Shown piece by piece: positions 10,930-63,216 of a stretch of DNA of 64,000 bases. The notes under the pieces are model-generated. The model was not told the DNA's origin. It saw only the letters and a program-made list of their open reading frames with translations, and did no database searches. The translations under genes and the position numbers were made by a program. Each line of letters begins with the position of its first letter. The stretch's first letter is position 1. This DNA comes from Phalacrocorax aristotelis (Eukaryota > Chordata > Aves > Suliformes > Phalacrocoracidae): contig NC_134276.1 of NCBI RefSeq assembly GCF_949628215.1, positions 134,850,125 through 134,914,124 on the forward strand. The letters are read 5' to 3'.

Positions 10930-11640
10930 TCAGTAGGCACATGCACACAAACACACATATACACCACATATACACACGGCCACCACACAGACCTACACAG
11001 AGACACAGAGCATTTACACAAACACAAACAGTACCAATGGCCTCATCCTGTTCCCCTCCCAGAGTGAGCAGGATGGCAGTCCAGTAATGGGAAATATATA
11101 TTTATGTACATATGGGTATATACACACGCATAGGGTGGATCCTTCCAGGAGCTGGGCTCAGACACTCAGCTGTCCCCAAATCCCAGTCTCCCCAGTTGCT
11201 GGCACCTGGGTATATGAGACCCCAAGGCTGCAGCCCCACTCCTGTTGCTGGTACAGACTCCATCACTCACACACATACAAGCACATGCACGTGCACAGCT
11301 GGCCAGGACTCCCCTGGTCCCTCCAGTAGCCAACCTGCCATGGCCTCATCCTTAGAGACACAGACACCAGTGTGTCCTCTCAGATCTCACAGTCTCTCCG
11401 GCAGCTGACTGGGACTGTCCTGGTCCCTCTGATAGGCAGTCCTTCCCTTACAGCCACCCCCCCCCCCACCCCCCCCCCCCCCACTACCAGGACACTTCAC
11501 CTGCTTGCTGGCTGGTCCAGCTGGATTTTTACTAGTACTCACAGCTTCACCTGCATGCCTGCACTTACTGCCCCAATGGGCACACAGGCCTCTGTGGCCT
11601 GGCACTGAGACCTCCATACACACCACATCACCCCACCCCC
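10930..11640. repeat. CA-rich and C-rich low-complexity block with diverged short repeats
   Basis: The stretch begins with degenerate CA-rich DNA (about 10937-11035 and 11265-11305). It contains imperfectly repeated phrases such as CCTGGTCCCTC (about 11310 and 11420) and a run of C at 11457-11482 broken by one A. It looks like a decayed minisatellite mixed with microsatellite DNA, placed directly beside the CR1 insertion at 11691. No coding potential is evident. Confidence 0.5.
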
Positions 11641-11690
11641 ACATAGAAGAGTACCTCACCCAGGAACAGAAGTAGAAATACAATTTAATA

Positions 11691-12200
11691 ACAGAATCAC
11701 AGAATGGCAGGGGTTGGAAGGGACCTCTGGAGATCATCTTGTCCAACCCCCCTGCTTGAGCAGGGACACCTAGAGCAGGGGGCACAGGAACGCATCCAGG
11801 CGGGTTCTGAATGTGTCCAGGGAAGTGGACTCCACATCCTCTCTGGGCAGCCTGTGCCACTGCTGTCACCCTCACAGTAAAGAAGTTTTTCCTCATGTTT
11901 AAGTGGAACTTCCTGTGTTCCAACTTGTGCCCATTGCCCCTTGTCCTGTCATTGGGCACCACTGAAAAGAGCCCAGACCCATCCTCTTGACACCGGCCTT
12001 TCAGGTATTTATAAGTATTGATAAGATCCCCACTCAGTCTTCTCTTCTCCAGGCTGAACAGACTCAGGTGTCTCAGCCTTTCCTCATAAGAGAGATGCTC
12101 CAGTCCCCTGATCATCTTGGTAGCTTTCTGCTGGACTTTCTCAAGTCCTTGCCCTGTCCTTCTTAAACTGGCGGTGCCAAAACTGGACACAGTACTGACA
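11691..12200 (-). mobile_element. CR1 LINE, 5'-truncated, 3' end intact
   Basis: On the minus strand an open frame contains the conserved C-terminal part of CR1 ORF2: [22 protein letters not shown], then [11 protein letters not shown]-like and [11 protein letters not shown] segments, then the [11 protein letters not shown] block. The sequence then passes into the CR1 3' UTR and ends at + strand 11691 with ACAGAATCACAGAATG, the complement of the family's ATTCTGTG terminal repeats. It starts abruptly near 12200, so only about 0.5 kb of the 3' end is present, as is usual for CR1. The coding frame is only mildly decayed, so this copy is younger than the other CR1 relics in the window. Confidence 0.92.
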
Positions 12201-14075
12201 GACTGTGCTGATCAAGTGTAGGGCAAGGCTGGACACGTGTGCTGGCCAGCCAACAGTTTATATGCAACTGGCCCCTTTTTTCTCCTTATGCCCCCCCTTT
12301 CCCCTCTTTGATTCCTCCCCTTAATATCCCAGAGTAAGTCCTCTGCAATCCCAAAATGCTCTTCCCCTGCATCCTGTAATGCCTCCGGTGCTCCTGTACG
12401 CAGGAGCCCCCCTCTCCCCCGCCTGAAAGATGCTGCAGCCCTAGACTCTTCATGATGGGTTTCACACCGGGACAATGGGGCTGATGGCTCTCCTGGGACA
12501 GCCCTGGGAGGGGCAGGCCCAGGCAGGGTGTCACTTCCTCTCAGTCCGTAATTTCGGTCACCACCTGGCATTGTGCCCCTCTGCTCCTCTGGGCATGTGA
12601 AAATGGGGCCTTTGATGTGTTGATGGATCTTGTGATGGGCCTGGGAGTAGCTGGGGGAGGATGTTATTTGTGGTCCTTTTCCTGCCATTGTCTCTCTGTG
12701 CTCCTTTGTGGGTGTGCAAATGAGCTTTTATCACATAGCCTAAGAAAGAGGACTGTGCAGGCTTCCCTTGCCCTTTTATACAACTGTTGCTCTGTTAACA
12801 CCACCACAGAAATACCTACTGAAGGGCGCAAGTCAAGTGGCCAAGTGCTACCCCATTTGACCCGCAAATTTCCAGTTGTGTGTGGTCAGGCGACCATGCC
12901 AAATAAACAGAAGTTAAATTAAAATGTAATCGTTCCAGTTCCTCAGAATCTGGTGACGAAAGCGATAGCTGGTCCCAAGATAATTTTCCTAGCAACGAAA
13001 ATCTGGCATAAAACAACTTTCTCCCTCTGTCCCTGTGCCCAGCCCCAGCTCTGAGCTGTTGCCGTTTTCTGTAGTCAAAATGCTTGGCAGATTCTTAATT
13101 CAGTGAAGCCTTTTGTTGTTTGACAGTGGTTTTGCCTGAAGTTCAAAGCACAACTCTTTACTACTCTCCTGGAAGAGTTTGGCAATTGTTTTGACCTGAA
13201 GGATGGGCAACATATAAATATGAAGCACAGTAGCGCAGTTTGGTTGAAAGGGAACAAATCTGGAAGTACGTGCAGCTGTAGAATCACAACTCAAGCTTTG
13301 CCCCCATAGATTCTAGCTTTGTAGGAAAAATATATTAAAAACAACAAAAACAAACCCAAAAGAACAACCAAGCAAAAAAAAAAACCAACCAAAACACAAA
13401 ACCAAAAAACACCCAAAGCCAGTTATCTAGAGCCGTGCCTCATCCACAGCTCTGGGCGGTGGGAAAGGCAACCAGGGAGGATGGCGTTTGACTTGAGGCT
13501 TCTGCCCGTGCTATGTGTGCGCCTGCCTCCCCGCCCGTCCCTGCCTGCCTCGCTGCTCATAAACTCCGGGTCGAAAGCAGCTTTATGCCGTGCAGCTCCC
13601 TTCACGCCCATCAGCCGTGTATTCTACCATTAGCTGACATTTGCCTGGCTTCAAACGTGTGTAAACACTTCCCCTCCACGCTGTCACCTCTCCCCGGCGC
13701 TGGGCGGTGGAGCCGCGGCGCACCCCCCCGCCCGCCGCCCACCATGGCGGCCCGGCTGCGCCGCACGCACGCCGGCGGAAGGCCGCTGATGTCAGTTGCA
13801 GTCAGAAAGCTCACACGCTCCGTTTTAGGTTTTTTTCCTTGTAATTACGGGACGCCGGGGAGCTCCTCCCCCGCCCCTCCCACCAGCCCCCCACCCGAAA
13901 CAGAGGCCATAAATCCCCGGGCCTCTGCGGGGCGAAAGCGTGAGCTCGCGCAGGGCTTGGGGCAGCCGCGTGGCGTGGGTGTGAGCGGGGAGCGGAGGCG
14001 CCGCCTCGCGCGTTCCGTTAGCTGGGGCAGCCGTTCGGCAGCCGGTCCCCGGGAGCTCGTCGTTCGTCGCCGGCG

Positions 14076-17000: not shown

Positions 17001-20000
17001 CACACTTGCATGTGGCACCTATGAGCTGCAGCTGCTGTTTATGCTGAAGAGAAACTCAAGGTGTGTGGAAATCATGAATAACCAAATTAACTAAAATGTT
17101 TTCTCTCTCTTTCCTCAGAAAATCACAGCACCCCTTATCTATGCTGTTTCCATTGCTGCCATTGGATCTCTCCAGTTTGGGTACAACACTGGTGTCATCA
17201 ATGCTCCTGAGAAGGTGAGGGGGAGAATGAGTTGGGGAGATGGTATGAATTGAGGGGCTGATGAGAAAACAAAGGTGCAGAAAGGAGAGGAGCAGTCTCC
17301 CAAGCAGCTAACAATTTTGTTCTGTTTTAAGTCAAGGAAAGAAGACATTGAAAACCCCCTCTCCACTACAACAATGGACAGGAAGGGCAAAGTTTTGGGG
17401 TGGAGAGAGAGCAAGCAGAGAGGCCAGCTCTCTTAATTAGGAGTGAAGAGGGTTGGCTAGGGCAGGAGGTGTCCAACTGCCATTTCCTGGTAGGTCTGTA
17501 TTTGGTGCATGGAGGAATGTGAGCCACTTAAGTTTTGAGGCAGAACAAATCAGCCATGGCAGAAGAAATGTAAAGAGCAGCATGCAGAAAACAGTTGAGG
17601 TTTGGTAAGGATTACAGTTGCTCTAGCTTAGTTTATCTCAGGGACCATCTGGGGCTTCTTTATTTGTTTATTCATTCCTTGTATTAAGTATAGATTCAGT
17701 GCTTGTAAAAGGGTTGTGACTGGGGCACTCTGACCAAATAATCTCATGACTGTAGCCTAAGAAGGAAAAGAAGAGATGAAAAAAAAAAAACTCAAGAAAT
17801 GTGGTTTTCTTGTTAACTATAAGATGGTTCCTCTCTCTCAGGAACTGAGTCACCAATACCACATCCACCCTGTCTCCGGGAATAGATGTCATATCACATG
17901 TTGGGGGGTGGGGTGGGAGGCAGGGGGTTCTCCCTAGCTAATGTCCTGCTGCCATCTGCTGGGGGCAGACACTCTGAGGCCATGCCCCACTTGGCTGTTG
18001 TAGAACATCCCTCACTGTCAAAGAGGATGCCTTGGAAATTAGCAACACAGCCCTGTCACATCCCCATGGGACAGTGAAGGATTGTTTTGCATAATGCTGC
18101 AGTCCTTCAGGCTTACCTCAGTGAAACTTTGTCTCTCTTAAAGTATTTCCATCCTGGAAAGCCTGTCCCTGCTCCCAGAGTTCTGGTATTACCAGAAGTA
18201 TTCTCTTTCATTCTCTGTGATCATGTTTTCTTGTTCCCTCTCACTTCCAGCTGTCTTGCACCCACCCCGCAAGCACCACCAGTGCTCATGTAATCCAGAA
18301 ACATTCAGAAGATAAGCCTGTTTTCCTTAATCATCATTGGCCCACCACCCCATGTTCAGTGAAGCAATTTCTTCTTCATCATACTGCTACCACCTACTGA
18401 ACTTCTCAATGAAAGTTCCTCTTTCTGCACCCTCCTCTTCCCCTTGTTTAACTTGTTGCTAACTACTGAATTTTTAAGGTCTATCCTTGCTGCTTGCCTC
18501 CATGAAAACTGAAGTAATCTCCCGTCTCCCCAGTGCAAAATGTCTCCCACTAGATTGTAACTCTGTCCCCACCTGGTTTCTCTTGCAGATCATCCAGAGG
18601 TTCTTCAACAGAACCTTGTCAGAACGGAATGGGGAAGTTGTCTCCCCAGAGCTCCTCACCTCTCTGTGGTCCCTTTCTGTGGCTATCTTCTCGGTAGGAG
18701 GTATGATTGGCTCCTTCTCAGTCAGCCTGTTTGTCAACAGATTTGGCAGGTAAGTTGGAAAGAGGGATCCAAACCACTGGGGAATTTTTCCCTTCCACAG
18801 TGGAGTGTGGGGAGGTGAGAGGAAGGGAGGAGGAGGAGGAGGAGGAGGAGGCTGGGGAGGAAGCAAGAATGTCTGGGCTGCAAAAAGAGAGGGTTGGAGG
18901 CCAAGGTAGGAGCTGAATGGGAATTACCCATTTCTTCTCCCAGCCCTGAGACTGGGAGGTCATGTGTGGGTTTACCCTTCTCCCAATGATTTTCCAAATG
19001 TATTGCCAGTTTGAGCTCAGTCTTGACATCTTTACCCTGGCAGGAGGAACTCCATGCTACTGGTGAATGTCTTGGCCTTTGCTGGTGGTGCTCTCATGGC
19101 CTTCTCCAAGATGGCAAAGTCAGTAGAGATGCTGATCATTGGCCGCTTCATTATTGGCCTCTTCTGTGGTCTCTGCACTGGCTTTGTGCCCATGTACATC
19201 AGTGAGGTCTCACCTACCAGCCTTCGTGGAGCCTTTGGCACCCTCAACCAGCTGGGCATTGTTGTGGGCATCCTGGTGGCCCAGGTAGGCTTGATACAAC
19301 CTGATCCTGCACTCAGGGGAAAGGGGGGCTGGGGGTGGGTGATGTGGGCAGCACTTGCCATCAGGTGTGATATGTGGTCCGGTCATACTCACTGGTGTGG
19401 GGTGTGGAATCTGAGTATTTAAATCACTATTACTCCCCAATTCTTGCTGTAGATCTTTGGTCTGGAAGGAATCATGGGGACTGAAGCACTTTGGCCACTG
19501 CTTTTGGGGTTCACAGTTCTCCCAGCAATCCTGCAGTGTGTGGCTCTTCTTTTCTGCCCGGAGAGCCCTCGTTTTCTGTTGATCAACAAGATGGAAGAAG
19601 AGAAAGCACAAGCAGGTAAGAACTCATCTCTGAAGTGGCACAGCTGTATTCTGGCTCCCAGCCTGCACTGAACTTGAGTGGGAGACCAGGACTGACTCTG
19701 GAGCCTGTGGTGGATCAGGGTGTGACTCCCAGAGGGCACCATGCCTACCCTCCCATCCTTCAGGTTGCACCAGTGCCAGGAAGTTTGAGAAACCTGGCAT
19801 CCCAACAGACACTCCAGGTGGGATTAAGACATGAGGAGTGGCTCCTGGCCTGGTGGGATGTAGCAGGCCCAGCTGCTGCAGCTCTTGTCAGCCTTTCCTG
19901 AAAGGCAGGAAATAGGCTGACATTGAACAGGGTGCTTGGAGGGTGTTTCCCTCTCCTACTGCAGAGGGTTGGAGTCAGCTCTGGCAAGCACGGGAACAGA

Positions 20001-22692
20001 ATTAGAGATCAAATGTAAATTTGGGGATCAAGCAACATGGGTAGGGCCTGGGCCTGGTTTCTGTGCTGATCTCAGCACCAACCTCTGCGTTGAAAAAAGA
20101 TGAGCAAGGCTGCATGTACGGGCTCAGTCTTTCCCAGGCAGCAGGCCCAAATGCTGACTGACTGGTGGTCCAGTCTTCCCAGGGTGCCCTGCCTGAAATA
20201 GCAGGGCAGGGTCGGGGGAACCTACTGGCTGTGTGTGTATTATATATTTATAATACATTTTATATATATATATATAATAAAAATGATATATATATTTATT
20301 CTTCCTTCCAGTTCTCCAGAAGCTCCGTGGTACACAAGATGTGTCTCAAGACATCCTGGAGATGAAAGAAGAGAGTGCTAAGATGTCCCAGGAAAAGAAA
20401 GCTACTGTGCTAGAGCTCTTCCGTTCTCCAAACTACCGCCAAGCCATTATCATTGCCATCATGCTGCAGCTTTCCCAACAGCTCTCGGGCATCAATGCTG
20501 TGAGTTATCTTACTGTCCCATCTGTTAGGCCTCCCTTATCTCTGGCTACACTTGCACTTGCCGCTAATGTTGAGAGAACCGTGTTTCCAAACACCCCTTT
20601 TTGCACCTTGGCTGGTGGTTGCTGTTCTGTGATAACTGCAGAGATTGCTAAAATGGAGATTATATTGGCTTTCACTTTTCCTGTACACACTCCAGCAAGA
20701 CATTGCAGTCTTGCATCAAGTGAATGAACCTTGACTGGAAGCATACTGTTTTCTACTGTTGAGTGCTTCCTAGAAACTCCTTGTTGGGCCTGCAAGCTCT
20801 CAGGCAGGGAACAAGAGGCATGCTTTCAAACACTGGAAATGTGACATGTCCAACTTCTGCTTCTCTTCCCAGGTATTCTATTATTCTACAGGGATTTTTG
20901 AAAGAGCTGGTATCACACAGCCTGTGTATGCCACCATTGGAGCTGGCGTGGTAAACACTGTCTTCACTGTTTTGTCGGTAAGTGGAACAGAGCCTTATGG
21001 TGAGAGGTAACCTGTCTGCCTGAGCTTTCTTGGGAGATGTGGCTAAGGACAAGTAGCCAGGCTGTGGCAAAGCATTGGGCTAGGCAGTGGCCTGTAAGAG
21101 CAAAGAAAAGAATGCATTAAAAGCACTGTGGAGGAGAGGAGGGGAGAAAAAGAGCTATTGTTACCATTTTAGAAGAAGGGGAGGGTGAAAAGTTGTGCAC
21201 AGGGGAAAAGAATGATGAGAGAAGGCAGGAGCAAGAACCAGAGAAGAAAAACTCATGCCAAGGATGGAGCAGCCTGGTGATCTGCACTGAGATCATCACT
21301 GGCACTGAGGTCTACAGGCAGATAAGAGGTGCAGGGCACACTGAGCAAGGGAGCTTTTTCTGCTCTTGCTGCCAAAATCACAGTTTTTTTTCCTCCTGCC
21401 ATGTTTCTAGCTGTTCCTGGTGGAACGTGCAGGACGCAGGACCCTCCATTTAGTTGGCTTGGGTGGAATGGCTGTGTGTGCTATTCTTATGACCATCGCT
21501 TTAGCTCTGAAGGTGAGTAATTAAGTGTTGTCCAGGCTGACCCCAGCAAGGGACCTATAAAACTGCACACCTGCCTTGCCCTGCAATTCTGCCCTGTAGG
21601 CAGGTACAGCTGGGGCTAGACCTGAGTGTGCAGTGGAGATCACAACTTCCTAACTGTGAATCTGTCTCATAGTGTTCACAGAGGAAGTTGTGGCACTGGA
21701 GATGGTGTTGTGTTGTGCCCGGTTTGCCTCAAAACTGCAGCTGATCACATTTTGTTCCCTCACAGGATGTTGTGGAGTGGATCAGATACATCAGCATTGT
21801 TGCCACTTTTGGCTTTGTGGCTCTTTTTGAAATTGGCCCTGGCCCTATCCCCTGGTTCATCGTGGCAGAACTCTTCAGCCAGGGCCCACGGCCTGCAGCC
21901 ATGGCAGTGGCTGGTTGTTCCAACTGGACCTCTAATTTCTTGGTGGGAATGCTCTTCCCTTATGCAGAGGTAAGGACCCAGCTTGCAAAGCACTGTGAGA
22001 GTGCTGCAGCATTGGAATAGGTGTGCAGAGTGGTTGTAGAATCTCTGTCCCTGGAGACTACAAAACATGACTGTATGACCCTTAACAACCTGATCTTTCC
22101 TTGAAGTTCTCTGTACTTCAAGCAGAGGGCTGGTCAGTCTTCCAGAGGTCCCTGATTTATGCTTTTGATTGTTACTGAAGGTTGAGTGTTGTGGCTCACT
22201 TTGTATTCTGCTGTCTTAACTGCCTGTGGCTTACAAATAGTTGGAAGAGCCATCTTAATTAGCCCATCAAATCTCAATTTTGGTGACCCCATGAACATAA
22301 AAGCATTTCAGAAGCCCACAGGAACCTGATTTCATTTTAAGAAAAAAAAGCTGTGTTGAAAAAGTCAGTAAGGCCATTGTTGAAAGGTGTTTGCTGTTAA
22401 CAGGTCAAAATTCTAAATGACCTTACACTTAGGTTTGTGAGCTTTTTCAAACAAAAACTTCCTGCTTTTGTTCTCCCTGCAGAAACTATGTGGCTCCTAT
22501 GTTTTCCTCATCTTCCTTGTTTTCCTGGTCATCTTCTTTGTCTTCACATTCTTCAAAGTGCCGGAGACCAAGGGCAGGACTTTTGAAGACATCTCCAGGG
22601 GCTTTGAAGGACGAGCCAGCCCCACATCACCTGTAGAGAAGAACCCCATGGTGGAGCTGAACAGCATACAGCCTGACAAAGAAGTTGCCTAA
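14076..22692 (+). CDS. SLC2A3 (GLUT3), facilitated glucose transporter, 10 coding exons
   Basis: Plasma-membrane facilitative glucose uniporter of the major facilitator superfamily with 12 membrane segments. Joined exons: 14076-14090, 17119-17214, 18589-18749, 19044-19284, 19453-19615, 20312-20499, 20873-20977, 21411-21512, 21766-21969, 22483-22692. These give 494 residues, matching the usual 490-500. All introns are GT-AG and the frame is open throughout. Family hallmarks are present: [12 protein letters not shown] in helix 1, an N-glycosylation site NRT in the first outer loop, [26 protein letters not shown], the QLS motif and QQLSGINA of helix 7, [16 protein letters not shown], and [12 protein letters not shown] at the start of the C-terminal tail. 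QLS is typical of class I glucose carriers such as GLUT3. The start codon sits in a strong context (G at -3 and +4). The tail (SIQPDKEVA) and the exon 2 residues match avian GLUT3 as I remember it. GLUT1 and GLUT4 are less likely from the tail and exon 1. Confidence 0.97.
14176..14202 (+). repeat. (GT)13 microsatellite in SLC2A3 intron 1
   Basis: An uninterrupted alternating GT run starts 85 bp downstream of the exon 1 donor, inside the CpG island. Alternating purine-pyrimidine tracts can adopt Z-DNA. The length is likely polymorphic. Confidence 0.9.
14203..17118 (+). other. SLC2A3 intron 1, remainder
   Basis: The first intron is about 3 kb (14091-17118). The CpG island fades out by about 14400. 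Beyond that I see no repeats of note, coding exon or RNA gene. First introns often hold enhancers, but nothing specific is recognisable. Confidence 0.6.
17119..17214 (+). CDS. SLC2A3 coding exon 2
   Basis: Residues 6-37, covering membrane helix 1 and the [12 protein letters not shown] signature. Acceptor TTCCTCAG, donor AAG|GTGAGG, phase 0 at both ends, 96 bp as in other class I GLUT genes. Confidence 0.96.
18589..18749 (+). CDS. SLC2A3 coding exon 3
   Basis: Residues 38-91, covering the first extracellular loop with the N-glycosylation sequon NRT, helix 2 and the start of RFGRR. Acceptor TCTTGCAG, donor AG|GTAAGT. The exon is 161 bp and ends after the second base of an Arg codon. A (GGA)n run lies about 80 bp into the following intron (18826-18851). 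Confidence 0.96.
18826..18851 (+). repeat. (GGA)n trinucleotide repeat in SLC2A3 intron 3
   Basis: Near-perfect GGA repeat of about eight to nine units, strongly purine-rich, about 80 bp downstream of the exon 3 donor. Such purine tracts can also act as splicing enhancers. Confidence 0.8.
19044..19284 (+). CDS. SLC2A3 coding exon 4
   Basis: Residues 91-171, covering helices 3-5, with GRRNS of the helix 2-3 loop, [14 protein letters not shown] and the PMYISEVSP motif. Acceptor CTGGCAG, donor CAG|GTAGGC, 241 bp, the conserved length for this exon. Confidence 0.96.
19453..19615 (+). CDS. SLC2A3 coding exon 5
   Basis: Residues 172-226, covering helix 6 and the cytosolic [11 protein letters not shown] motif at the start of the large central loop. 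Acceptor GCTGTAG, donor GCAG|GTAAGA, 163 bp, ending one base into a Val codon. Confidence 0.96.
20238..20300 (+). repeat. (TA)n-rich tract abutting the SLC2A3 exon 6 acceptor
   Basis: AT-only DNA dominated by TATA repeats ends only about 11 bp before the acceptor AG at 20310-20311. The usual polypyrimidine tract is shortened to CTTCCTTCCAG. The length is probably variable. Confidence 0.85.
20312..20499 (+). CDS. SLC2A3 coding exon 6
   Basis: Residues 226-288, covering the rest of the intracellular loop ([24 protein letters not shown]) and the first part of helix 7 with [11 protein letters not shown]. Donor GCT|GTGAGT, 188 bp as expected for the family. Confidence 0.96.
20873..20977 (+). CDS. 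SLC2A3 coding exon 7
   Basis: Residues 289-323, VFYYSTGIF through [10 protein letters not shown], covering the end of helix 7 and helix 8. Acceptor CTTCCCAG, donor TCG|GTAAGT, 105 bp. Confidence 0.96.
21411..21512 (+). CDS. SLC2A3 coding exon 8
   Basis: Residues 324-357, containing [12 protein letters not shown], the repeat of the RFGRR motif in the C-terminal half, and helix 9. Acceptor TTTCTAG, donor AAG|GTGAGT, 102 bp. Confidence 0.96.
21766..21969 (+). CDS. SLC2A3 coding exon 9
   Basis: Residues 358-425, covering helices 10-11, with [17 protein letters not shown] containing the conserved Trp at the sugar path. Acceptor CCTCACAG, donor GAG|GTAAGG, 204 bp. Confidence 0.96.
22483..22692 (+). 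CDS. SLC2A3 last coding exon
   Basis: Residues 426-494, covering helix 12, [15 protein letters not shown] and a cytosolic tail ending SIQPDKEVA before TAA. The tail type distinguishes GLUT3 from GLUT1 and GLUT4. Confidence 0.96.
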   Translation, partial: KLCGSYVFLIFLVFLVIFFVFTFFKVPETKGRTFEDISRGFEGRASPTSPVEKNPMVELNSIQPDKEVA

Positions 22693-47208: not shown

Positions 47209-47345
47209 CACACCCCACCCCCACCCCCCCACCCCCGCTCTGTCCCCACCCCACCAATCAGCCTCTTTAACATGACAAAGAGCCTCAAGCTGCAGACAAT
47301 GGTGGATATTGCAGTCCCAGGCAGGATATACCCAGCTATAAAGGT
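47209..47345 (+). promoter_or_regulatory. Proximal promoter of the NANOG paralogue: CACCC tract, CCAAT, OCT-SOX, TATA
   Basis: Four elements lie in order upstream of the start codon at 47439. They are a CACCC/C-rich tract (47209-47255, a KLF/SP-type target), a CCAAT box (47254-47258), TTTAACATGACAAAG (47266-47280), and TATAAAGG (47337-47344). The third is, on the opposite strand, CTTTGTCATGTTAAA, close to the composite SOX-OCT consensus CTTTGTNATGCAAAT. The same CCAAT, OCT-SOX and TATA-like order occurs in front of the - strand NANOG, with a 14/15 match in the composite element. Direct OCT4/SOX2 control of NANOG through such an element is established in mouse and human. Function here is inferred. 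Confidence 0.7.
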
Positions 47346-47438: not shown

Positions 47439-47619
47439 ATGTGTGCACACTTGGCTCTGCCCCCTTACCAGGCTTACCCCAGCGGGACTGGCATGGGGTA
47501 CCTGGAGTTTTACTGGAACTCAGCAGGGGAGGCAGGACATGCCCCCACTTTGGCTGGGCCAGCAGGAGCCACCAGTGCCAGTCAGTCTCCGGACACAGGA
47601 GGGAAGAGGCAGATGGCAG
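47439..47619 (+). CDS. NANOG paralogue exon 1
   Basis: Residues 1-60 plus the first base of codon 61. MCAHLALPPYQAYP at the start is the only part that clearly aligns with NANOG exon 1. The rest is Gly/Ala/Ser-rich and divergent. Donor GCAG|GTAAGG, phase 1, exactly as in NANOG. Unlike NANOG exon 1 it is not in a CpG island. Confidence 0.8.
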
Positions 47620-50600
47620 GTAAGGCATTTCAGCTAAGTCCTAGAGCTGATCCCCAGAATACCTGTGGTCCCAGGTCAGCCACTCACTCAATGACCTTGA
47701 GCAAATTTTTCTCTCTTCCTGCCTTGGTTTCCTAATGTGTGAGCTGGGCAAAGTGCAGTGTGGTAGGCAAGGAGGATGGGTGACCTTGGGCAGTCACACC
47801 ACCTTTCCTTTGGTGACTGTGAACCATTTTCTTAAACCTCAACAGAGCCTGTGAGAGTCCAGGCACTGGCAGGTCTGTGCTCCAGGCTGAAGGGCAGTGT
47901 GGCCACATGGTCTCATGGAATTTTGTGGTTCTCAGGGCAAGAATGTCTTGGGCTCCTTTTAGTCAAATGCTGTCATGTGTGCTATGGAGAGAAACAAATC
48001 CTGAAAGTAATTATTCTCGTGGCATCCCTTATCCCCTTACAAATCTTTGCGCCCTTCATGTGCTCATGAAACTTGAGCCAAGGCATGCTCTGAATTACTG
48101 ACAGGAAATCTGCTCCCTTTAAATGCAGCATTATTACTTTAGTTTTAATTTGCCATTTTTTGCCATTTTTCTCTATCACCTTCTCCTTTCCATCCGCTTG
48201 TTGTCTTGCCTTTTCCCCTTTGCAAAACAGTCCCAGGGCCCACCGTGGTGGCATTTATGGTTCCTGCCATTCCTCTCCCACTCCAGTGAGTGGCTGATGA
48301 AAGCAGCTTTTCACCCACCCCACTGTATGGTCAGCAGGGTAATGCTTTTGTAAGGTGAATGGATGGGAGGAGAGTGAGCTTTTGGAGCGCCGGTTTCAAG
48401 CTGTCAGATGCTATAGAGAGCTACAGGCTCCGGCAGAGTGGCTAGCAGCTACTTCATATGTGGTTACTTGCCATGCAGTTTGGAGAAAGGCTTAGGTTCT
48501 CTGCATGCTTCCTGCTCCACAAAGGCAGCAGGCAGTCAAGACTCATTCATGCCCCCAAAGGACCTGGTATATAGACTTAAAACCTGTCTTCAAACACTCT
48601 CCTCTGGTGTTTCTTTCTACAGAGACCCATCACGGAAGCAAAGGCCTACAGACTTCAAGGGCCTGTGGGAGTGGGTCTGTCAGATATTTGTGTTTATGTC
48701 TGTTGCACTGCTGTTTGTGTTTCTTGCTTCCTCTTTCCTTCACTCTTTTCTCATGGGAGAGGGCGCGCCTTTGTCCCGAGCTTGAGCTGCAGGTGGTAAA
48801 TTACCTGGGGGTTTGGGATGACAGGCTGAGTGGGAACGTGTGGGAGCTTTAGCTCTATGGTGTCTTGCTGTGGTTCCTTCTAGCAGAATACTTGCCTGTT
48901 TTCCAAGCCCACATTCTCAGCATACTAATTTCCTACCTATAAGGTTTTTACTGCACAGCCTGCAGGAGCCAAGCATCCTGTGGTCTCACACAAAATTTTA
49001 TCTTCCCGTGCATCCAGGTCACAGATGTTCAGCTTTCTCTCAGGCTCTGCAGACTAGCCCTATGCACATAACACCTCAGACCCTTGCACCTCTTCTATTG
49101 AAAGCCCCTTTCTGCCTTGTAGGCAGAATCCCTTTGTAATCCTCATTGCCCTGCTCCCCAGCAACAGAAATGTGCTCCACTATACACCTGCCTCTTCACA
49201 TATCCTGTGCTCTGGATGGTTATAATCTCCTAAGGATAGGAACTAGCTAAGAGTAGGCCTACAAAAGCAGGCAATCCTCGCGTGGCAGGCACCACAAAGA
49301 CAGGTGTGCCTCTGTCAGGAGGGTAACAAGGGAAAAGATACCACAGACATGGCCACTTTTCTGAGGCCCAGCAGCACTGCAAGGCTGTTGAGTGATTGCT
49401 TAGTAGCCTCTCAGCTTAGGATAGAAGAAGGAAGGCTTTGGTAGGGTGGACAGGGAGCCCATTCCTCGGGGGGTCTCTGTACTTTGCATTGGACATGCAT
49501 TCGGGGGGGTTGAAGAAGAGGTCTCAGTGGGCTTCAGTCACAGCTCTCAGGGTCACTAGGAAGGAGATTAGGAGCTACTGGTTTGGCTCAGTAGTGAGAA
49601 GCTGTGTACTGAAAATGGCACTGCAGCATTCGCTGCACCCCCTCTCTCCTGAAATGTCAGTAGGAGGAGAGGGGATGGACCATGCAGAAAGGTTTGCAGA
49701 GGAGTGGCTGGAGGAAGGAGGGATGGACAAATTTATTACTGCAGTTATGGGGAAGGGGAGGAGACTTACATTGTAGCCCTTCAGTCAGGGCTGGCCTGAG
49801 AAGGTCTCAGCCTCTCACAGACCCCAGCAACCAGGCACCTCACAGAAAGGTGCTGGGGTAATCTCTCTTGTTAGCATTTTCCTATTCAGGATGCCTGAAT
49901 GACTGTGCATCTTGGCACCTTTTGTCTGGACTAGTAGCCCAGACTGTTTAGGAAGTTTTTCCTTTAGATCTTTATCTCAACTTTGCCCTCAACAGAGATC
50001 CCTTATCCCTTAAGACATGTACCAGAACAAATGAAAAGGAGCTTGGACACCTTCCTGTGCACTCTTGAATTTTGTCCCCTACGACCCTGGTACAAGATTA
50101 CTGGCTCTTCTCACCTCTCCCACACATCCATCTTTCCTCTCTTCCTCCACACTTCCATGTCAAATTTCTCTCCTTCATTCTCTTTCACCAGAAGCCCCCC
50201 TCAGCCGAATATGTCCCTCCATCTATACATATGTTTCCAGCAGTGGGGTGCTCTGTGGTGGGAGCCACAGGTAAACAGGATTAAGCCAATATCCAAGGCC
50301 TGACTGATGCTCTTTACCTGCCGCTCCATCATTGTGAGCACCGGCTTCTCTGCCCCACCATACACCCTGGTTGGAGGCTGCTTTGCCACTGTCTGTCAAG
50401 TGCGCTGAGATTGCTGGGAGACAGTTTCAGTGAGCCCAGACACCAACCCAAAGCTATGTTTGCAGTCATGACCAGGCCTCTTTACACCACACTAAGACCA
50501 AAATATTGCTGGGGACTTTTGGAGGAGGATAGTAACACTGTAAGCTAATGTGCACCATTCTCTACCCCCTGCCCTGAGTTTTCTGCCTGGCAAAAGAGAA

Positions 50601-53302
50601 CCACAGGTACCTCAGAGAGCTGAGCTGGGAAGCTGCTTGCTGTCAGTGGGCTTGTCTGTGCTCACGGATCCATGAAGGAAGGAGGGTGACACAAGCCTTT
50701 GCTTCAACAAAGCTGCTGTCTGGTAGGCAAGGAACTCTACAGCTGGCAGAGATCATGCTTATACACATACAGCTGTGCATTGTGTCTTGTATACATTTTC
50801 CCATTGTCTTTTTATTTCTAGAAGTATCCCCAGCTTCGTCCAGTTCTGGGAATTTCAGCCAATTCACACCAGATTCAGCCACCAGTCCACATTCAGCATC
50901 CTCGTCCCCACCACCTACAGCTAAGTCTCAGAAGGGCAGAGAAGATGGCATGGAGGGGGTGAGGAAGGCCAAGAGCCGCACGGCTTTCTCCAAGGAGCAG
51001 CTGCAAACCCTGCACCAGCGGTTCCAGAGCCAGAAGTACCTCAGCCCCCAGCAGATCCGGGAGCTGGCTGCTGCCCTGGGGCTCACCTACAAGCAGGTGA
51101 ACAGAGACTTTTACCCATGGTATATCTGTCACATAGTGGCTCAATGGTCACATAAGGCAGTGACAGGATGGAAAAATAAGTCCCTAGCAGAGAGTAGAGG
51201 CAAAGGTACCAGCTAACAGTTGCTCCCCTGCCTATTCATGCCCAGAGATCAGGAGGACTTCTGGGGAACAGCAGTCAGTAGCACCTCACTGGGGCCTCCC
51301 CAGTGAGGAGTCAGTTGAGGGTGCTGTTGCCAACACTCGTAGTATAATTGCAAACATAGTGATGAATATGTTGTTTGCCTCCACCCTGGGCTTGACAGTA
51401 CTTCAGTACTTGTCAGTACTTCACATAGTTTTTCCATGCACTGGTGAACTTCACAGAACTTCACAGAACTTCACAGAAACCCTGGCATGCGTCAGGTCTC
51501 TGGAACCCAGGGCTGCAATATGCTAAAAGCTATGGCTAATGTTACCCAGGGCTGATCTTGTCCAACATCCAATAATGTCCCACACTCAGCACTGCCTGGC
51601 TGCTTTACATCCACTACCCTCTCCATGTGGGTACTGCTAGGTTCATACATTGCAGACCTTCAGGGTCTCTGCTGATGTCCAGGTAGTTTGTGTGTAGTAA
51701 ACTGGTACTGGCTCAAATGATGCCTTCCTAAAGCAGAGCAGGCTGGGCAATGGGGCACAAGTACTTAACAGTTATAAATCCAAAATCTGCCTGGAATTTG
51801 GATCTCAGAGCTGGGCATGATCATCTGGATGCCCCTGGGATACCCTGGGACTTAAAAAGTTATATATATACATACACATGCACATATAGAACTGGTTCTG
51901 TGAGGAACATGACCAGTGGTACAATCTGCTCTTTCCTTCAATCCACATCCCGGCAAAGGCTGCTTGCAGAGAGCAGACACAGCCCTGGGGGGAAATGGCT
52001 CTGGAATTCACCCCAGCAAGAAGCTTTGAATTTGGGAACTGCTGGGTACCAGGAGCAAGCCTCTCACTTCTCCACTCACAAGCATGCAGAAACAGTCTTA
52101 GAAGTTTGCCTGTACTGCAGGGGGCTTGTAGAGACCTAGATGGGTCTAATTTTCACCATGCATTCATCTCCATGATTGAAATGAATCAATTTGTCACAGC
52201 TATGGCTGTCCCGTGGACATAATGCTGCTCCCTCCCCCCACCATGCAGATGCACTAGCCACCTGCTGAGGCTGCTAGACAGACATCTCTCCTTGGCAACA
52301 ACTCCAGGGAGCTCTCAAAGGACTTTATCTGCTGCTGCCCATATATCTATGCCATCTGGTCACTCTTTGCTGCTTGTGAATCTGATAACATTTGCTCTTC
52401 CCTCTCCTTTGCTTATGTTTTCTCTGCTCTCCCTTCCCCACCCAGGTGAAGACTTGGTTCCAGAACCGGAGGATGAAGCTGAAAAGGTGCCAGAAGCATA
52501 GCCTGTGGACTGAACGGGCTCAGTGCCTCACACAAGTAAGAACATAGCAAATGGCTCAGCATGGCCCTTCTATCTGGGCAGATAAGTCCTGTGATATATT
52601 TCCTCCACAGGGGCAAGTTAAGGGTAGAAGTATCAGTGTGCCCTGCCTTCTGGTTTGTTCAGTGCAGAGGCATGACTCTCTGTGTTCTGTAGGTAGCCTA
52701 GCAATGGGCTGACTACGTCACTGAAATGTTTCCAGACAAAAGCTGTTTTCCTCTTATATATTTGACTGTGTATCCACCCTTGAGCTATGGGGATGGATAT
52801 GGTTCGTCTTGCCCTCCCATGCCATTGCTGTTGATCAAGAGACAACATGAAATGTGAAGGGACAGAGCCTCAGTATGAGTTAGGCTGCAGACACCAGTTG
52901 AGAAACTATTTGTTCTGACTCACTGTCTTTCCCTTTCAGAGTGGCTTCCAGCCAAGTACTTACCTGGATGTGCACCCCAAATTCCACCAGGGCTACCCGA
53001 TCACTGCAGCCAGTAACATACAAACCATGCCTCCCCCCCATCAGCATTATGGAGCAGGGCAGAATGCTTACACAATCATGACCGGAGAGGATGGAGGAGT
53101 CTTTGGAAAAGGTGGGGGCACCTGCAGCGTCCAGCAGACAGTAGGCTTCATTGCCCAGCACAAAGTAGACTTTTACCACAGCTGTCCTGGCAGTGTGGAA
53201 TACCCAGGCGCAAAGACAGGTGACAGCTGTAACTTTCACCACTCGGCTACCATGGGGGCTCCTTTCCCAGCCACTGCTGGCCACCATCTCTATCATTCCT
53301 AA
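47439..53302 (+). CDS. NANOG paralogue (second NANOG-family homeobox gene), 4 exons, intact
   Basis: Nuclear homeodomain transcription factor of the NANOG family. Exons 47439-47619, 50822-51096, 52446-52535 and 52940-53302 give 302 residues with an open frame and GT-AG introns. Intron phases (1, 0, 0) and positions equal those of the - strand NANOG. The N-terminus MCAHLALPPY parallels MSAHLAYLPY and sets the start, although the Kozak context is weak (C at -3). A Ser/Pro-rich segment EVSPASSSSG...PDSATSP precedes the homeodomain (residues 109-168, four differences from NANOG; WFQNRRMK with Arg at position 52 instead of Gln). The C-terminal part keeps TYLD, FHQG, GAGQN, FGKGG, QQ and FYH landmarks but diverges elsewhere and ends about 14 residues short. 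No premature stop, so it is not an obvious pseudogene. It lies tail-to-tail with NANOG. Likely expressed in pluripotent or germ cells (inference from the promoter). Confidence 0.88.
47668..47830 (+). mobile_element. MIR-type SINE fragment(s) in intron 1 of the NANOG paralogue
   Basis: CCACTCACTCAATGACCTTGAGCAAATTTT and CCTTGGTTTCCTAATGTGTGAG match the MIR core and 3' part (CCACTTACTAGCTGTGTGACCTTGGGCAAGTT, CCTCAGTTTCCTCATCTGTAAA). A second partial match, GTGACCTTGGGCAGTCAC, follows at about 47780, perhaps another fragment. It begins about 50 bp past the exon 1 donor. Confidence 0.6.
47831..50821 (+). other. NANOG paralogue intron 1, remainder
   Basis: The intron spans 47620-50821 (about 3.2 kb), far longer than the 369-bp intron 1 of NANOG. 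Apart from the MIR at its start I see no known repeat, exon or RNA gene in it. Confidence 0.5.
50822..51096 (+). CDS. NANOG paralogue exon 2 (homeobox 5' part)
   Basis: Residues 61-152: EVSPASSSSG, PDSATSP, a basic/acidic linker, then homeodomain positions 1-44 up to TYKQ. Acceptor TTTCTAG (phase 1), donor CAG|GTGAAC. The last 99 coding bases plus six intron bases are almost identical to NANOG. Confidence 0.92.
51446..51478 (+). repeat. Short tandem repeat (GAACTTCACA)3 in intron 2
   Basis: Three exact 10-bp units plus three bases, preceded by related AGTACTTCA/CAGTACTTCA phrases (51397-51423). Local slippage product in intron 2 of the NANOG paralogue. Confidence 0.8.
52446..52535 (+). CDS. 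NANOG paralogue exon 3 (homeobox 3' part)
   Basis: Residues 153-182: VKTWFQNRRMKLKRCQK completes recognition helix 3 and the basic end of the homeodomain, then SLWTERAQCLTQ. Acceptor CCACCCAG, donor CAA|GTAAGA. The 90-bp length is identical to NANOG exon 3, but nucleotide identity is clearly lower than in exon 2. Confidence 0.92.
52940..53302 (+). CDS. NANOG paralogue exon 4 (C-terminal transactivation region)
   Basis: Residues 183-302 and TAA. Shared with NANOG in order: SGFQ/NGFH, TYLD, KFHQG, HYGAGQNAY, MTGEDGGVFGKGG, CSVQQTVGF, DFYH and VEY. Rich in His, Gly and Tyr towards the end (HHLYHS). Acceptor CCTTTCAG, phase 0. Confidence 0.9.
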   Translation, partial: SGFQPSTYLDVHPKFHQGYPITAASNIQTMPPPHQHYGAGQNAYTIMTGEDGGVFGKGGGTCSVQQTVGFIAQHKVDFYHSCPGSVEYPGAKTGDSCNFHHSATMGAPFPATAGHHLYHS

Positions 53303-54020
53303 GCACTGTGGATGTGGGGTACTTGGGCACCTGGGAATCAAATCTCATTCTTATCTCTCCCTTTGTTGTTCATGTGCTCTTTAAATCAGGGGCATTGGCA
53401 TCATGTAGCGGAACCTGTTTTGGCAACCAAATATGTGCCTGCAAGCATGCACAGACACACAAACATGCCTGTTTGCCCATATACATCCATACAGCCCTCC
53501 ATTTGTATGCCCTTACACATGCACACACGCACCCCCTTCTTTACTCACATAGACAACTCTGTTTCCTTATAGCAAGACCCAAGACCTGGCTACCTAGATT
53601 ATCCGCTGAATCTTCTAAATTATTGTAACTTTTCTCAGAGGAGGCACAGATTCCTTTGGGGATCTCATTTATACGTATCACTGTACAGTTGTCTATAACT
53701 AACCCTGAAGCCATGGGCTGTATGGAGAGGTGCTGGTAACATACCTTTCACTGAAGTTGAAGGAGTTATTGTCACAGGCCAGGCATCCATCTGATGGCTA
53801 GATCACCAGTTCTGTAGGTCAGCCACAAGGTACAGAATTGATGAAGTGTCTAGTGAAGCGACACGTGACTTGTAGCTTGCAGAAAGGCTGGTAAGATGAT
53901 CTTATAAGCATCAAAGTGATAAATTTTGTTTATTTGTTCTGGTCTGTATCTTCCTGTGCCTCCCCTGAAGAAAACCAAACAGTGCATTCAATTTGGCAAA
54001 TAATAAAATATTTTTTAAGG
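53303..54020 (+). other. 3' UTR of the NANOG paralogue (inferred)
   Basis: The first AATAAA after the stop is at 54002-54007, giving a 3' UTR of about 0.7 kb. It includes a CA-rich segment (about 53441-53530). The end point is inferred. Confidence 0.55.
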
Positions 54021-60481: not shown

Positions 60482-60898
60482 CTAAGGCTCATAACCACTC
60501 TGGGTCCCCAGGGGAAGCCAAGGGGCCTGGTACTGATGCCGTACAGGAGAGCTTGAGAATGGTGTGACACTGTCAGAGGTGGTCTGGAAGCTGTTGGTGT
60601 CTTCTGGCTCCAGGCTGACGTATTCCATATTGGCAGGGTAGTTGTGATAGAAGTTCATCTGCTGGCTTAAGAAACCCATGGCTTGCTGAGTATTGCAGCT
60701 TGTCCCACCTTTTCCAAAGAGGCCCTCATCCTCCACAACCATGAATGAGTACAGGTTCTGCCCATTCCCGTAAGTCTGGCCACTGCTGTAAGGCTGGTGC
60801 ACTTTGGTCATGGACTGAAGGTTTATGTTGGCACTGACAGGGAAGCCCTGGTGAAATGTAGGCGTTATATCCAGGTACGTAGCCTGATGAAACCCATT
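60482..60898 (-). CDS. NANOG exon 4
   Basis: Residues 174-311 and stop TAG: NGFHQATYLD through SGYEP. Transactivation region rich in Gln, Ser, Tyr and Asn. Acceptor CTTTCCTAG, phase 0. Confidence 0.95.
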   Translation of the reverse strand, partial: NGFHQATYLDITPTFHQGFPVSANINLQSMTKVHQPYSSGQTYGNGQNLYSFMVVEDEGLFGKGGTSCNTQQAMGFLSQQMNFYHNYPANMEYVSLEPEDTNSFQTTSDSVTPFSSSPVRHQYQAPWLPLGTQSGYEP

Positions 60899-63039
60899 CT
60901 AGGAAAGACAGAGAAGGCTGTTCAGTAATGCAGGGCACGACACATTCTGACTGTACCCATTCTTTTGGACAGGTCCTCCTTTCTCCCCTGCCCCTCCTAC
61001 AAGCCAAACAACAGTGTCTTTTTCATACTTGTGGTCCTCACTATAGACTAATCCTAACTTTAATAGATATGACAAGATATTAAGTCTCCAACTCAACAGG
61101 TCTGGAAACACCATGCTGGAGAGAAAACCAGCATGAGTAGCCTTGCTGGTCCTCTTTGGCTGTTTTGTTTTCTGTCTAGTCTCAGCTGGGAGATTAGTGA
61201 ACTGGAAACAAAGCTCTTTCAGTGCCAGGGGCAGCTGAAAATAGATGTCACTGTAAGTCCAATTACAAGAAATACAACTGGCTTGGTAATATGGAGTCCT
61301 GTGCATCGTTCTGGTTAGTAGTCTGGACATAATGGACTTCTCCCCACAGACTGGAGGGACAGTAACTGGTGGTGATGGGGGGAAGGGAGAATTCTCTCAC
61401 CTGTGGTAGATACACCCCTTTTTCCACCCACTGGCTCTCCTTTTGGCAACGTTTAAATTTCATCCGTTGATTCTGAAACCATGTTTTCACCTAGAAGTGA
61501 TGGGGAAAGGACATAACGCATTAGAAATTCATTCTCAAAGCTTACTACACATCCTAAAGATGTTTTGCTTTCTACTACAATCCAGTTTCTGCTTGGTTTC
61601 TAATACTGTACATAATTTCAGCAGCTAACAATATGCAGCAGACCTAGGTAGGTGTAGAATCATAGAGCTGAGACTTGAAAACAAACTCTCTTACTTCTCA
61701 GATCACCATGTGGTCTTTCATGACACCAAAAAACCCCACCTGAAACACAGGCCAAGACAACTGCAGCAACGCAGTTTGTACAAGCAGGAGCTGTGCCAAG
61801 ATCAGTGCTGACTGAGGAGTCATTCCTTCAGTCAGACAGAGCAGCTGGTGGGGCAAGGATACCCTCTCTCTAGGGAGAGACCCAGGTGCCACTCAGACTA
61901 AGAAGGGCAACTTGCATAGCAGTACAAGTATCTGACTTCATGTTTGGAGACAACACATGCCTGCACAGAACAGTAACCTGACTCTGCATAGCCCTGCTCT
62001 GTATGCACTTTCAAACACCTGCACAGAGTGGGTGGATAGTGCTTGAACCAAACATAAGAGGAAAACTGAGTCATAAGTTTTCACACCCTCTGCTCTCTCA
62101 TATAGGCAATGGAATAAACAAGACTATGAAAGAAACTCATCTCTGGGGTCTAAGAAAAAAAGAAAAACCACCAAAACCCCCTGTTCACAAAATCACTTCA
62201 CACCAGGGATGCAACTCAGCTGCTCAGAGCAAGATGTTCACCTGCTTGTAGGTGAGCCCCAGGGCAGCAGCCAGCTCCCGGATCTGCTGTGGGCTGAGGT
62301 ACTTCTGGCTCTGGAACCGCTGGTGTAGGGTTTGCAGCTGCTGCTGGGAGAAGGCTGTGCGGCTCTTGGCCTTCTTCACCACACCCTCACCTTCCTCCTT
62401 GACCTTCTGGAAAGAGGGATGGGGAGATGGGCGCTCTGCGGTGGGGCTAGTGGCAGAGTCAGGGACGTACTGGATGAGTATCCCAGAGCTGGAGGAAGCC
62501 GGAGAGACATCTGAGGAGAAAAAAGAACTGGGATGAGCAGGGTCAGGGGGAGAAGACTCAAAGACTTCGAAGCTCATCTTCTCGGGAGAATTTAAGATTG
62601 CGGGTGCCCTGGGGACTTTGCAGGGGCTCCGCAGCCGCAGGCAACGCGGTGCGGAGAAGCCGGCACAGGCACCCTCGGCTCGAGGGAGCGGAACCGAGGC
62701 CCCTCTCTGCTCGCACCCCCACCCCGCCCGGGCACCAGGGCCGCTGCTTTACTGCGGGGCAGCCGGCGGAGCTCGATCTTCCTCGCCGGGACGGCACCGG
62801 CATCGCTCCCCCCCCCGGGACAGGAGGGACGCGAGTGACACGACCAGCCCCCCGGGGTCGGCCGGGCCGGGGCGCGTACCTGGGTGGCTGGGCGTCTTGG
62901 CCGCCGCGGAGAAGGGGAGTGAGTCCGCCGCCGGAGCCTCCTCGGCAGGCACGCTGTCCATACTCCCTGGGGAGAGCCAGCAATAGTCCCCACACCTGAC
63001 CGCGCCGCTGTAGGGCAGGTAGGCCAGGTGGGCACTCAT
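60482..63039 (-). CDS. NANOG homeobox transcription factor, 4 exons
   Basis: Pluripotency and germline homeodomain factor acting in the nucleus. Exons in transcript order 63039-62880, 62510-62242, 61490-61401 and 60898-60482 give 311 residues, close to the avian length. Start MSAHLAYLPY as in avian NANOG with G at -3. An in-frame ATG at 63120 lies about where transcription should begin and is disfavoured. Order of parts: Ser/Pro-rich N-terminus (DVSPASSSSG, VPDSATSP), homeodomain at residues 100-159 with WFQNQRMK (Gln at position 52, the NANOG-type residue), then a C-terminal region with TYLD, FHQG, YSSGQTYGNGQN, EDEGLFGKGG, CNTQQAMGF, FYHNYP and RHQYQAPW. The mammalian Trp-repeat is absent, as in birds. 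All splice sites are GT-AG and the frame is intact. This copy, rather than the + strand one, matches chicken NANOG as I remember it. Confidence 0.96.
61401..61490 (-). CDS. NANOG exon 3
   Basis: Residues 144-173: VKTWFQNQRMKFKRCQKES completes the homeodomain recognition helix, then QWVEKGVYLPQ. Acceptor CACTTCTAG, donor CAG|GTGAGA, 90 bp. Confidence 0.95.
62242..62510 (-). CDS. NANOG exon 2
   Basis: Residues 54-143: DVSPASSSSG, Pro/Ser linker, KVKEEGEGVVKKAKSRTAF, and homeodomain positions 1-44. Acceptor CTCCTCAG (phase 1), donor CAG|GTGAAC. Its 3' 99 bases and the first six of the intron are nearly identical to the + strand paralogue. Confidence 0.95.
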
Positions 63040-63139: not shown

Positions 63140-63216
63140 CTTTATGTCCTCCCCAGCCTGGCCTTGGCTAGAAGGGATTGTCATGGCCATTGTCATGTTA
63201 AAAGTCAGTTGATTGG
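63140..63216 (-). promoter_or_regulatory. NANOG proximal promoter: CCAAT, OCT-SOX composite, TATA-like
   Basis: Reading the minus strand towards the gene there is a CCAAT box (63216-63212), then TTTAACATGACAATG (63202-63188), then CATAAAG (63146-63140), about 100 bp before the start codon. The second element is, on the + strand, CATTGTCATGTTAAA, a SOX half-site joined to an octamer-like half-site as in mammalian NANOG promoters. A second SOX-like half-site (ATTGTCATG, 63178-63186) repeats the first with 11-bp spacing. Composite-element control by OCT4 and SOX2 is established for mouse and human NANOG. Use here is inferred. Confidence 0.72.

Follow-up and report, generated by a model that had tools for sequence, protein, structure and literature searches.

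NANOG is located between SLC2A3 and AICDA in sarcopterygians, with named exceptions (PMC3894937). In this region, two copies, NANOG1 and NANOG2, were reported as inverted tandem duplicates in all archosaurs and turtles studied, with the inverted order of the pair described in alligator and turtles, and the homeobox was assigned to exons 2 and 3 (PMC3894937). The same paper cites and corrects older literature in which bird NANOG is single-copy. After a report in chicken, the duplication turned out to be prevalent across birds (PMC5413911). Here, such a pair is described in a 64,000-nucleotide (nt) stretch of DNA from Phalacrocorax aristotelis (the window; its positions are used throughout), part of contig C1 (219 Mb) in a genome of 1.279 Gb and 352 contigs. 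The + strand gene at 47439-53302 is very probably bird NANOG2 (Nanog-like), one half of an old inverted tandem NANOG duplication between SLC2A3 and AICDA. It is a known, expected bird gene and thus a real but ordinary find. The one new lead is a near-identical homeobox exon in the two copies.

Both genes consist of four exons. NANOG2 is encoded on the + strand by exon 1 at 47439-47619 (start MCAHLA, ending in phase 1), exon 2 at 50822-51096 (homeodomain residues 1-44, ending in phase 0), exon 3 at 52446-52535 (90 nt, homeodomain residues 45-60) and exon 4 at 52940-53302 (TAA stop included), which together give an open frame of 302 amino acids. A likely polyadenylation signal, AATAAA, lies about 700 nt 3' of the stop at 54002-54007 (+). 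NANOG1 runs on the - strand from 63039 to 60482, with exon 1 at 62880-63039 (start MSAHLA), exon 2 at 62242-62510, exon 3 at 61401-61490 (90 nt) and exon 4 at 60482-60898 (TAG stop), and its open frame is 311 amino acids long. Intron phases 1, 0, 0 and the 90-nt exon 3 are common to both genes, all six introns have GT..AG ends, and the two genes are convergent, that is, an inverted tandem pair. Their homeodomains are identical at 56 of 60 residues (the differing positions are 10, 11, 52 and 56), and in exon 1, exon 3, exon 4 and the stretch of exon 2 that lies 5' of the homeobox the proteins differ at 33 to 69% of aligned residues. An earlier note made from the sequence had described the + strand gene with these phases, this exon 3, an MxAHLA start, a C-terminal region without stops and the same homeodomain identity, and had seen in it a convergent, intact and unprocessed second NANOG. 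The gene models agree with all of this. The note had also taken bird NANOG to be usually described as single-copy, which would make the pair a surprise; that premise gives way to the published inverted pair (PMC3894937; PMC5413911) and to the expression reported in finch (PMC4608004). A processed copy is ruled out by the three intact introns and the open frame.

Several lines of evidence identify both genes as NANOG. Human NANOG (2KT0) was the best match of both proteins in a search of solved structures (E ~2e-20), followed by the NANOG structures 4RBO, 2VI6 and 8YDD, with the two-domain engrailed construct 6M3D among these next matches. In the alignments of this search, the segment YKQVKTWFQN is common to both proteins and human NANOG, and the Pfam homeodomain was matched by both. 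The features that mark membership of NANOG were all found: a homeodomain closest to NANOG, four exons, a homeobox split over exons 2 and 3, and the location between SLC2A3 and AICDA. To the left of NANOG2, at ~18.6-22 kb (+), a glucose-transporter exon was closest to GLUT3/SLC2A3 structures, with GLUT1 close behind; the SLC2A3 exons are placed at 18586-21975 (+), which are the outer limits of sugar-transporter matches and not the whole gene. On the other side, an APOBEC1-like exon is found at C1:134936599 (+), 22 kb beyond the window end, and an exon closest to AID/AICDA at C1:134961831 (-), 48 kb beyond it (E 7e-57). The gene order is thus SLC2A3 (+), NANOG2 (+), NANOG1 (-), the APOBEC1-like exon and the AID/AICDA exon. 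Between NANOG1 and AICDA there are two exons of the AID/APOBEC type besides that of AICDA itself, the APOBEC1-like one at C1:134936599 (+) and another at C1:134949243 (+).

The assignment of the two copies was aided by a primer published for chicken NANOG, NM_001146142 (PMC5891889). This primer matches exon 4 of NANOG1 at 18 of 20 positions and NANOG2 at 12 of 20, and shuffled sequence reaches 14. The match suggests that chicken NANOG likely corresponds to the - strand gene (NANOG1), which leaves the + strand gene as NANOG2, or Nanog-like. Two of the other three chicken primers fit neither gene above shuffled sequence, and one fits NANOG1 only at the shuffled maximum. The identity of NANOG2 is likely on the strength of its position together with the match of the other copy to chicken NANOG by one primer. 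A genome search with the NANOG2 protein, in which 130 of 171 candidates were scored, placed the two NANOG loci first and then ordinary homeoboxes from E 2e-11; among the scored candidates, no third NANOG copy rose above the level of ordinary homeoboxes.

The closest described systems are the NANOG2 or Nanog-like genes of birds, crocodilians and turtles. As described in the literature, they share with the gene studied here the inverted NANOG1 partner, the SLC2A3-AICDA site, the exon 2/3 split of the homeobox and the presence of two copies (PMC3894937; PMC4608004; PMC5413911), and no decisive difference was seen in this comparison of descriptions rather than sequences. The cloned chicken NANOG (NM_001146142; PMC5891889) is likely the counterpart of the neighbour NANOG1 and not of NANOG2. 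Human NANOGP1/NANOG2 is likewise described as a tandem unprocessed duplicate of NANOG, but it arose by an independent hominid duplication that took in SLC2A3 (PMC3894937). NANOGNB of eutherian mammals lies in tandem with NANOG, its sister gene, at this locus and has been proposed as the counterpart of one reptile/bird NANOG; its homeodomain is reported to be only 20% identical to that of NANOG (PMC5413911), in contrast to the 56 of 60 residues shared by the present pair.

Selection on the coding parts was assessed by comparing nonsynonymous (dN) and synonymous (dS) divergence between the two genes. In exon 4, dN is 0.43 and dS 1.27 (bootstrap 0.77-4.02), a dN/dS of ~0.34 (bootstrap 0.11-0.56). 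In a crude drift simulation over half of the exon 4 silent distance and without insertions or deletions, the open frame of exon 4 survived 11 times in 2000 runs. NANOG2 is taken to be an old gene that has been constrained in exon 4 at the least. Because both frames are open, at least one of the two genes, and most likely both, has been kept by selection. Two points weigh against this picture. Exon 1 aligns poorly and its dN/dS is 0.24 by the Nei-Gojobori method and 1.13 by YN00, and a pairwise comparison without an outgroup does not allow the constraint to be divided between NANOG1 and NANOG2. By Nei-Gojobori, dS is saturated and not computable in exon 3 and in exon 2 5' of the homeobox; beyond the homeobox part of exon 2, silent divergence is in general close to saturation or has reached it. 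Calculation of dN/dS for each exon, which the earlier note had proposed, thus gave a clear value in exon 4, one that depends on method in exon 1 and none by Nei-Gojobori in exon 3. The note's idea of long selection on two genes is supported in exon 4, as far as age and constraint go. The 56 of 60 identical homeodomain residues are no simple measure of such selection, because 42 of the 56 fall in a single exon with unusually alike silent sites. Homogenisation or silent-site constraint may account for part of the close homeodomain match in exon 2.

The promoters of the two genes also retain a common part. The 250 nt upstream of both start codons (ATG) share a 13-nt word, TTTAACATGACAA, which begins 173 nt before the ATG of NANOG2 and 163 nt before that of NANOG1; in 1000 random window pairs, the longest shared word was 11 nt. 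The word is preceded in both cases by CCAATCA, so that the proximal promoter of NANOG2 at 47254-47280 (+) reads CCAATCA then TTTAACATGACAAAG and that of NANOG1 at 63188-63216 (-) reads CCAATCA then TTTAACATGACAATG. It runs into a SOX-like site (ACAATG, ACAAAG), labelled by what we take to be the SOX consensus. Mammalian NANOG promoters contain an OCT-SOX element whose layout may be similar. The shared word suggests that the duplication probably included the promoter and that both copies kept part of it. Introns and 3' untranslated regions (UTRs) of the two genes gave no alignment above shuffled sequence, which rules out haplotype copies of one locus.

NANOG2 most likely acts in the manner of NANOG, as a transcription factor with a homeodomain that would help, in early blastoderm and epiblast, to keep cells uncommitted. 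It is probably switched on together with NANOG1 through the shared promoter element, the CCAAT box and SOX-like site. In finch, Nanog was cloned and told apart from Nanog-like, transcripts of both were found in the early blastoderm, and at a later stage Nanog-like was concentrated peripherally, in cells that go on to form extra-embryonic tissue (PMC4608004). By analogy, later expression of NANOG2 is probably shifted to cells that form extra-embryonic tissue. Strong expression of Nanog-like has also been reported in induced pluripotent stem cells of several birds (PMC9592614). As a point against a uniform role, NANOG2 may differ in function between birds, since the level of Nanog-like at laying was reported to be higher in the finch than in the chick blastoderm (PMC4608004). 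At homeodomain position 52, NANOG2 has R in place of the Q found in NANOG1 and human NANOG, which may slightly alter the contact with DNA.

The exon 2 homeobox differs from the rest of the two genes in the likeness of its silent sites. An inverted repeat of 175 nt at 90% identity, with arms at 50929-51103 (+, NANOG2) and 62235-62409 (-, NANOG1), is the only repeat of at least 30 nt reported within window positions 40000-64000, so that the similarity of the two genes is not due to chance. At conserved degenerate residues, the same codon is used at 39 of 43 positions in the exon 2 homeobox and at 46 of 103 elsewhere (Fisher 1e-7). When silent sites were scanned for segments, residues 107 to 153 stood out. 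This segment starts shortly before the homeodomain and extends one codon beyond exon 2, and its score was not matched in any of 20000 permutations. In this tract dS is 0.138 (bootstrap 0.034-0.304), compared with the 1.27 of exon 4. Beyond the exon, the likeness carries on for 7 nt of intron 2 and no further. Within the one homeobox, 38 of 42 silent codons are alike in the portion encoded by exon 2, compared with 4 of 12 in that encoded by exon 3. The GC content of third codon positions (GC3) is 0.91 and 0.86 in the tract of the two genes and 0.73 and 0.50 in their exon 3.

Two explanations of this tract have to be weighed. In the one, for which we put the chance somewhat short of even, gene conversion in one lineage after another exchanges the exon 2 portion of the homeobox between NANOG1 and NANOG2, and the remaining coding sequence, including what is left of the homeobox, drifts apart. 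In the other, given an even chance, the likeness is due to constraint on silent sites or to codon bias through GC-rich codons, splicing signals or an exonic regulatory element. The tract has the bounded low silent divergence between saturated flanks that is typical of gene-converted pairs, but this is also expected of silent constraint specific to one exon. Gene conversion between tandem NANOG genes has been raised as a general possibility (PMC3894937), and our literature search gave no title or abstract demonstrating it in bird NANOG. Base composition goes some way towards the constraint explanation, with GC3 high in the tract of both genes, although high GC3 fits GC-biased conversion and codon bias alike. 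A null model pooled over all of exon 2 expected 24.7 of the 43 codons to be alike, but it set the bar too low, given the higher GC3 of the homeobox part. When each gene's own GC3 was kept, 23.7 of 42 were expected and 38 observed, which is more than codon bias of this kind provides. Columns with A- or T-ending codons are identical in 3 of 7 cases in the tract and in 155 of 915 in control pairs of homeoboxes, also against constraint, albeit in a small number. The likeness also ends with exon 2, although exon 3 encodes the rest of the homeodomain and is identical there at 14 of 16 protein residues. Selection at the protein level acts alike on both parts of the homeobox and therefore does not explain this fall. 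Conversion that ends in intron 2 and silent constraint confined to exon 2 could both do so.

A number of observations count against conversion, and some of them also speak for constraint. The exon 3 part of the homeobox has only 12 informative codons, and on its left side the tract begins close to the homeodomain start, where plain selection would also put it. A 15-letter word of the exon 2 homeobox is common to both copies and to a mouse NANOG primer printed in PMC9343426; of six such homeobox words looked for in print, matches came from papers that, judged by title or abstract, deal with mouse cells. Some of the silent likeness thus reaches beyond birds, to mammals, and on this account the standing of conversion was lowered from an even chance to its present level and that of constraint raised. 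In silent identity, the controls point in the same direction. From the same genome, 60 homeoboxes were fetched and 5 dropped for want of a usable frame, and the remaining 55 gave 52 pairs of similar protein identity; these pairs share members and their homeoboxes are read through in one exon, so that they provide no control for effects specific to an exon. In silent identity over chance (GC3-corrected), NANOG has a z score of 4.85, with one control above it (4.96) and one at a tie (4.84), and a third, a HOX-like pair with low GC3 (0.61, 0.64), reaches 4.44. Pairs on different contigs, of what we take to be the HMX and NKX1 types, reach a silent identity of 0.86-0.95. These controls weaken a claim made from silent identity alone, and the contrast between exon 2 and exon 3 was used in its place. 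A fall as large as that from the exon 2 to the exon 3 part of the NANOG homeobox was seen in none of the 52 control pairs (the largest was 0.38, compared with 0.57).

Other accounts of the locus are much less probable. A recent, bird-specific duplication, of which exon 2 would show the true age, is very unlikely: it is rejected on silent divergence beyond the exon 2 homeobox, which has come close to saturation or reached it, alignment of introns and 3' UTRs has been lost, and alligator and turtles are reported to have the pair in this inverted arrangement (PMC3894937). The value above 1 that one of two methods gave for exon 1 dN/dS is what a decaying pseudogene on the + strand might leave behind, but 302 open codons, intact splice sites, the exon 4 dN/dS of ~0.34, the rarity of open frames under simulated drift and the published expression of the finch orthologue (PMC4608004) make decay extremely unlikely. 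The locus was described in a single assembly, as would suit an assembly artefact or false haplotype duplication. The chance of this is close to negligible, given introns and UTRs that do not align, residue differences of 33 to 69% outside the exon 2 homeobox, a window free of N and a gene order that is known from other birds (PMC3894937).

If gene conversion took place, it would have kept a shared DNA-binding specificity in two pluripotency factors that otherwise diverge. The neutral rate of avian DNA is ~2e-9 per site and year. At this rate the last exchange would lie some 35 million years back, within limits of roughly 10 to 75 million years. Three different ages have been published for the bird duplication: PMC4608004 makes it recent in birds, PMC3894937 traces it to the ancestry of archosaurs and turtles, and PMC5413911 puts it before the split of reptiles and mammals. 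The trees in PMC3894937 and PMC5413911 were built from exons 2 and 3. If exon 2 has been homogenised, trees that include it would misdate the duplication, which would be a simple cause of the conflicting published ages. In practice, primers, guides or antibodies directed at the exon 2 homeobox may not separate NANOG from Nanog-like.

Two groups of control homeoboxes deserve mention in their own right. The presumed HMX-type loci L058, L060, L065 and L076 and NKX1-type loci L055 and L059, on contigs C4 and C12, share 0.79-0.95 of silent codons over their first 44 codons. Their GC3 is 0.95-1.0 and the likeness holds within and between the two contigs, as expected of extreme codon bias or silent-site constraint. 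In the HOX-like pair L066 (contig C23) and L070 (contig C2), with GC3 of 0.61 and 0.64, 28 of 39 silent codons are alike, compared with 15.1 expected. Elsewhere in the window, an open frame on the - strand at 11387-12211 was without a match in Pfam; its N-terminal part reads like what we take to be the reverse transcriptase tail of a CR1-type long interspersed nuclear element (LINE).

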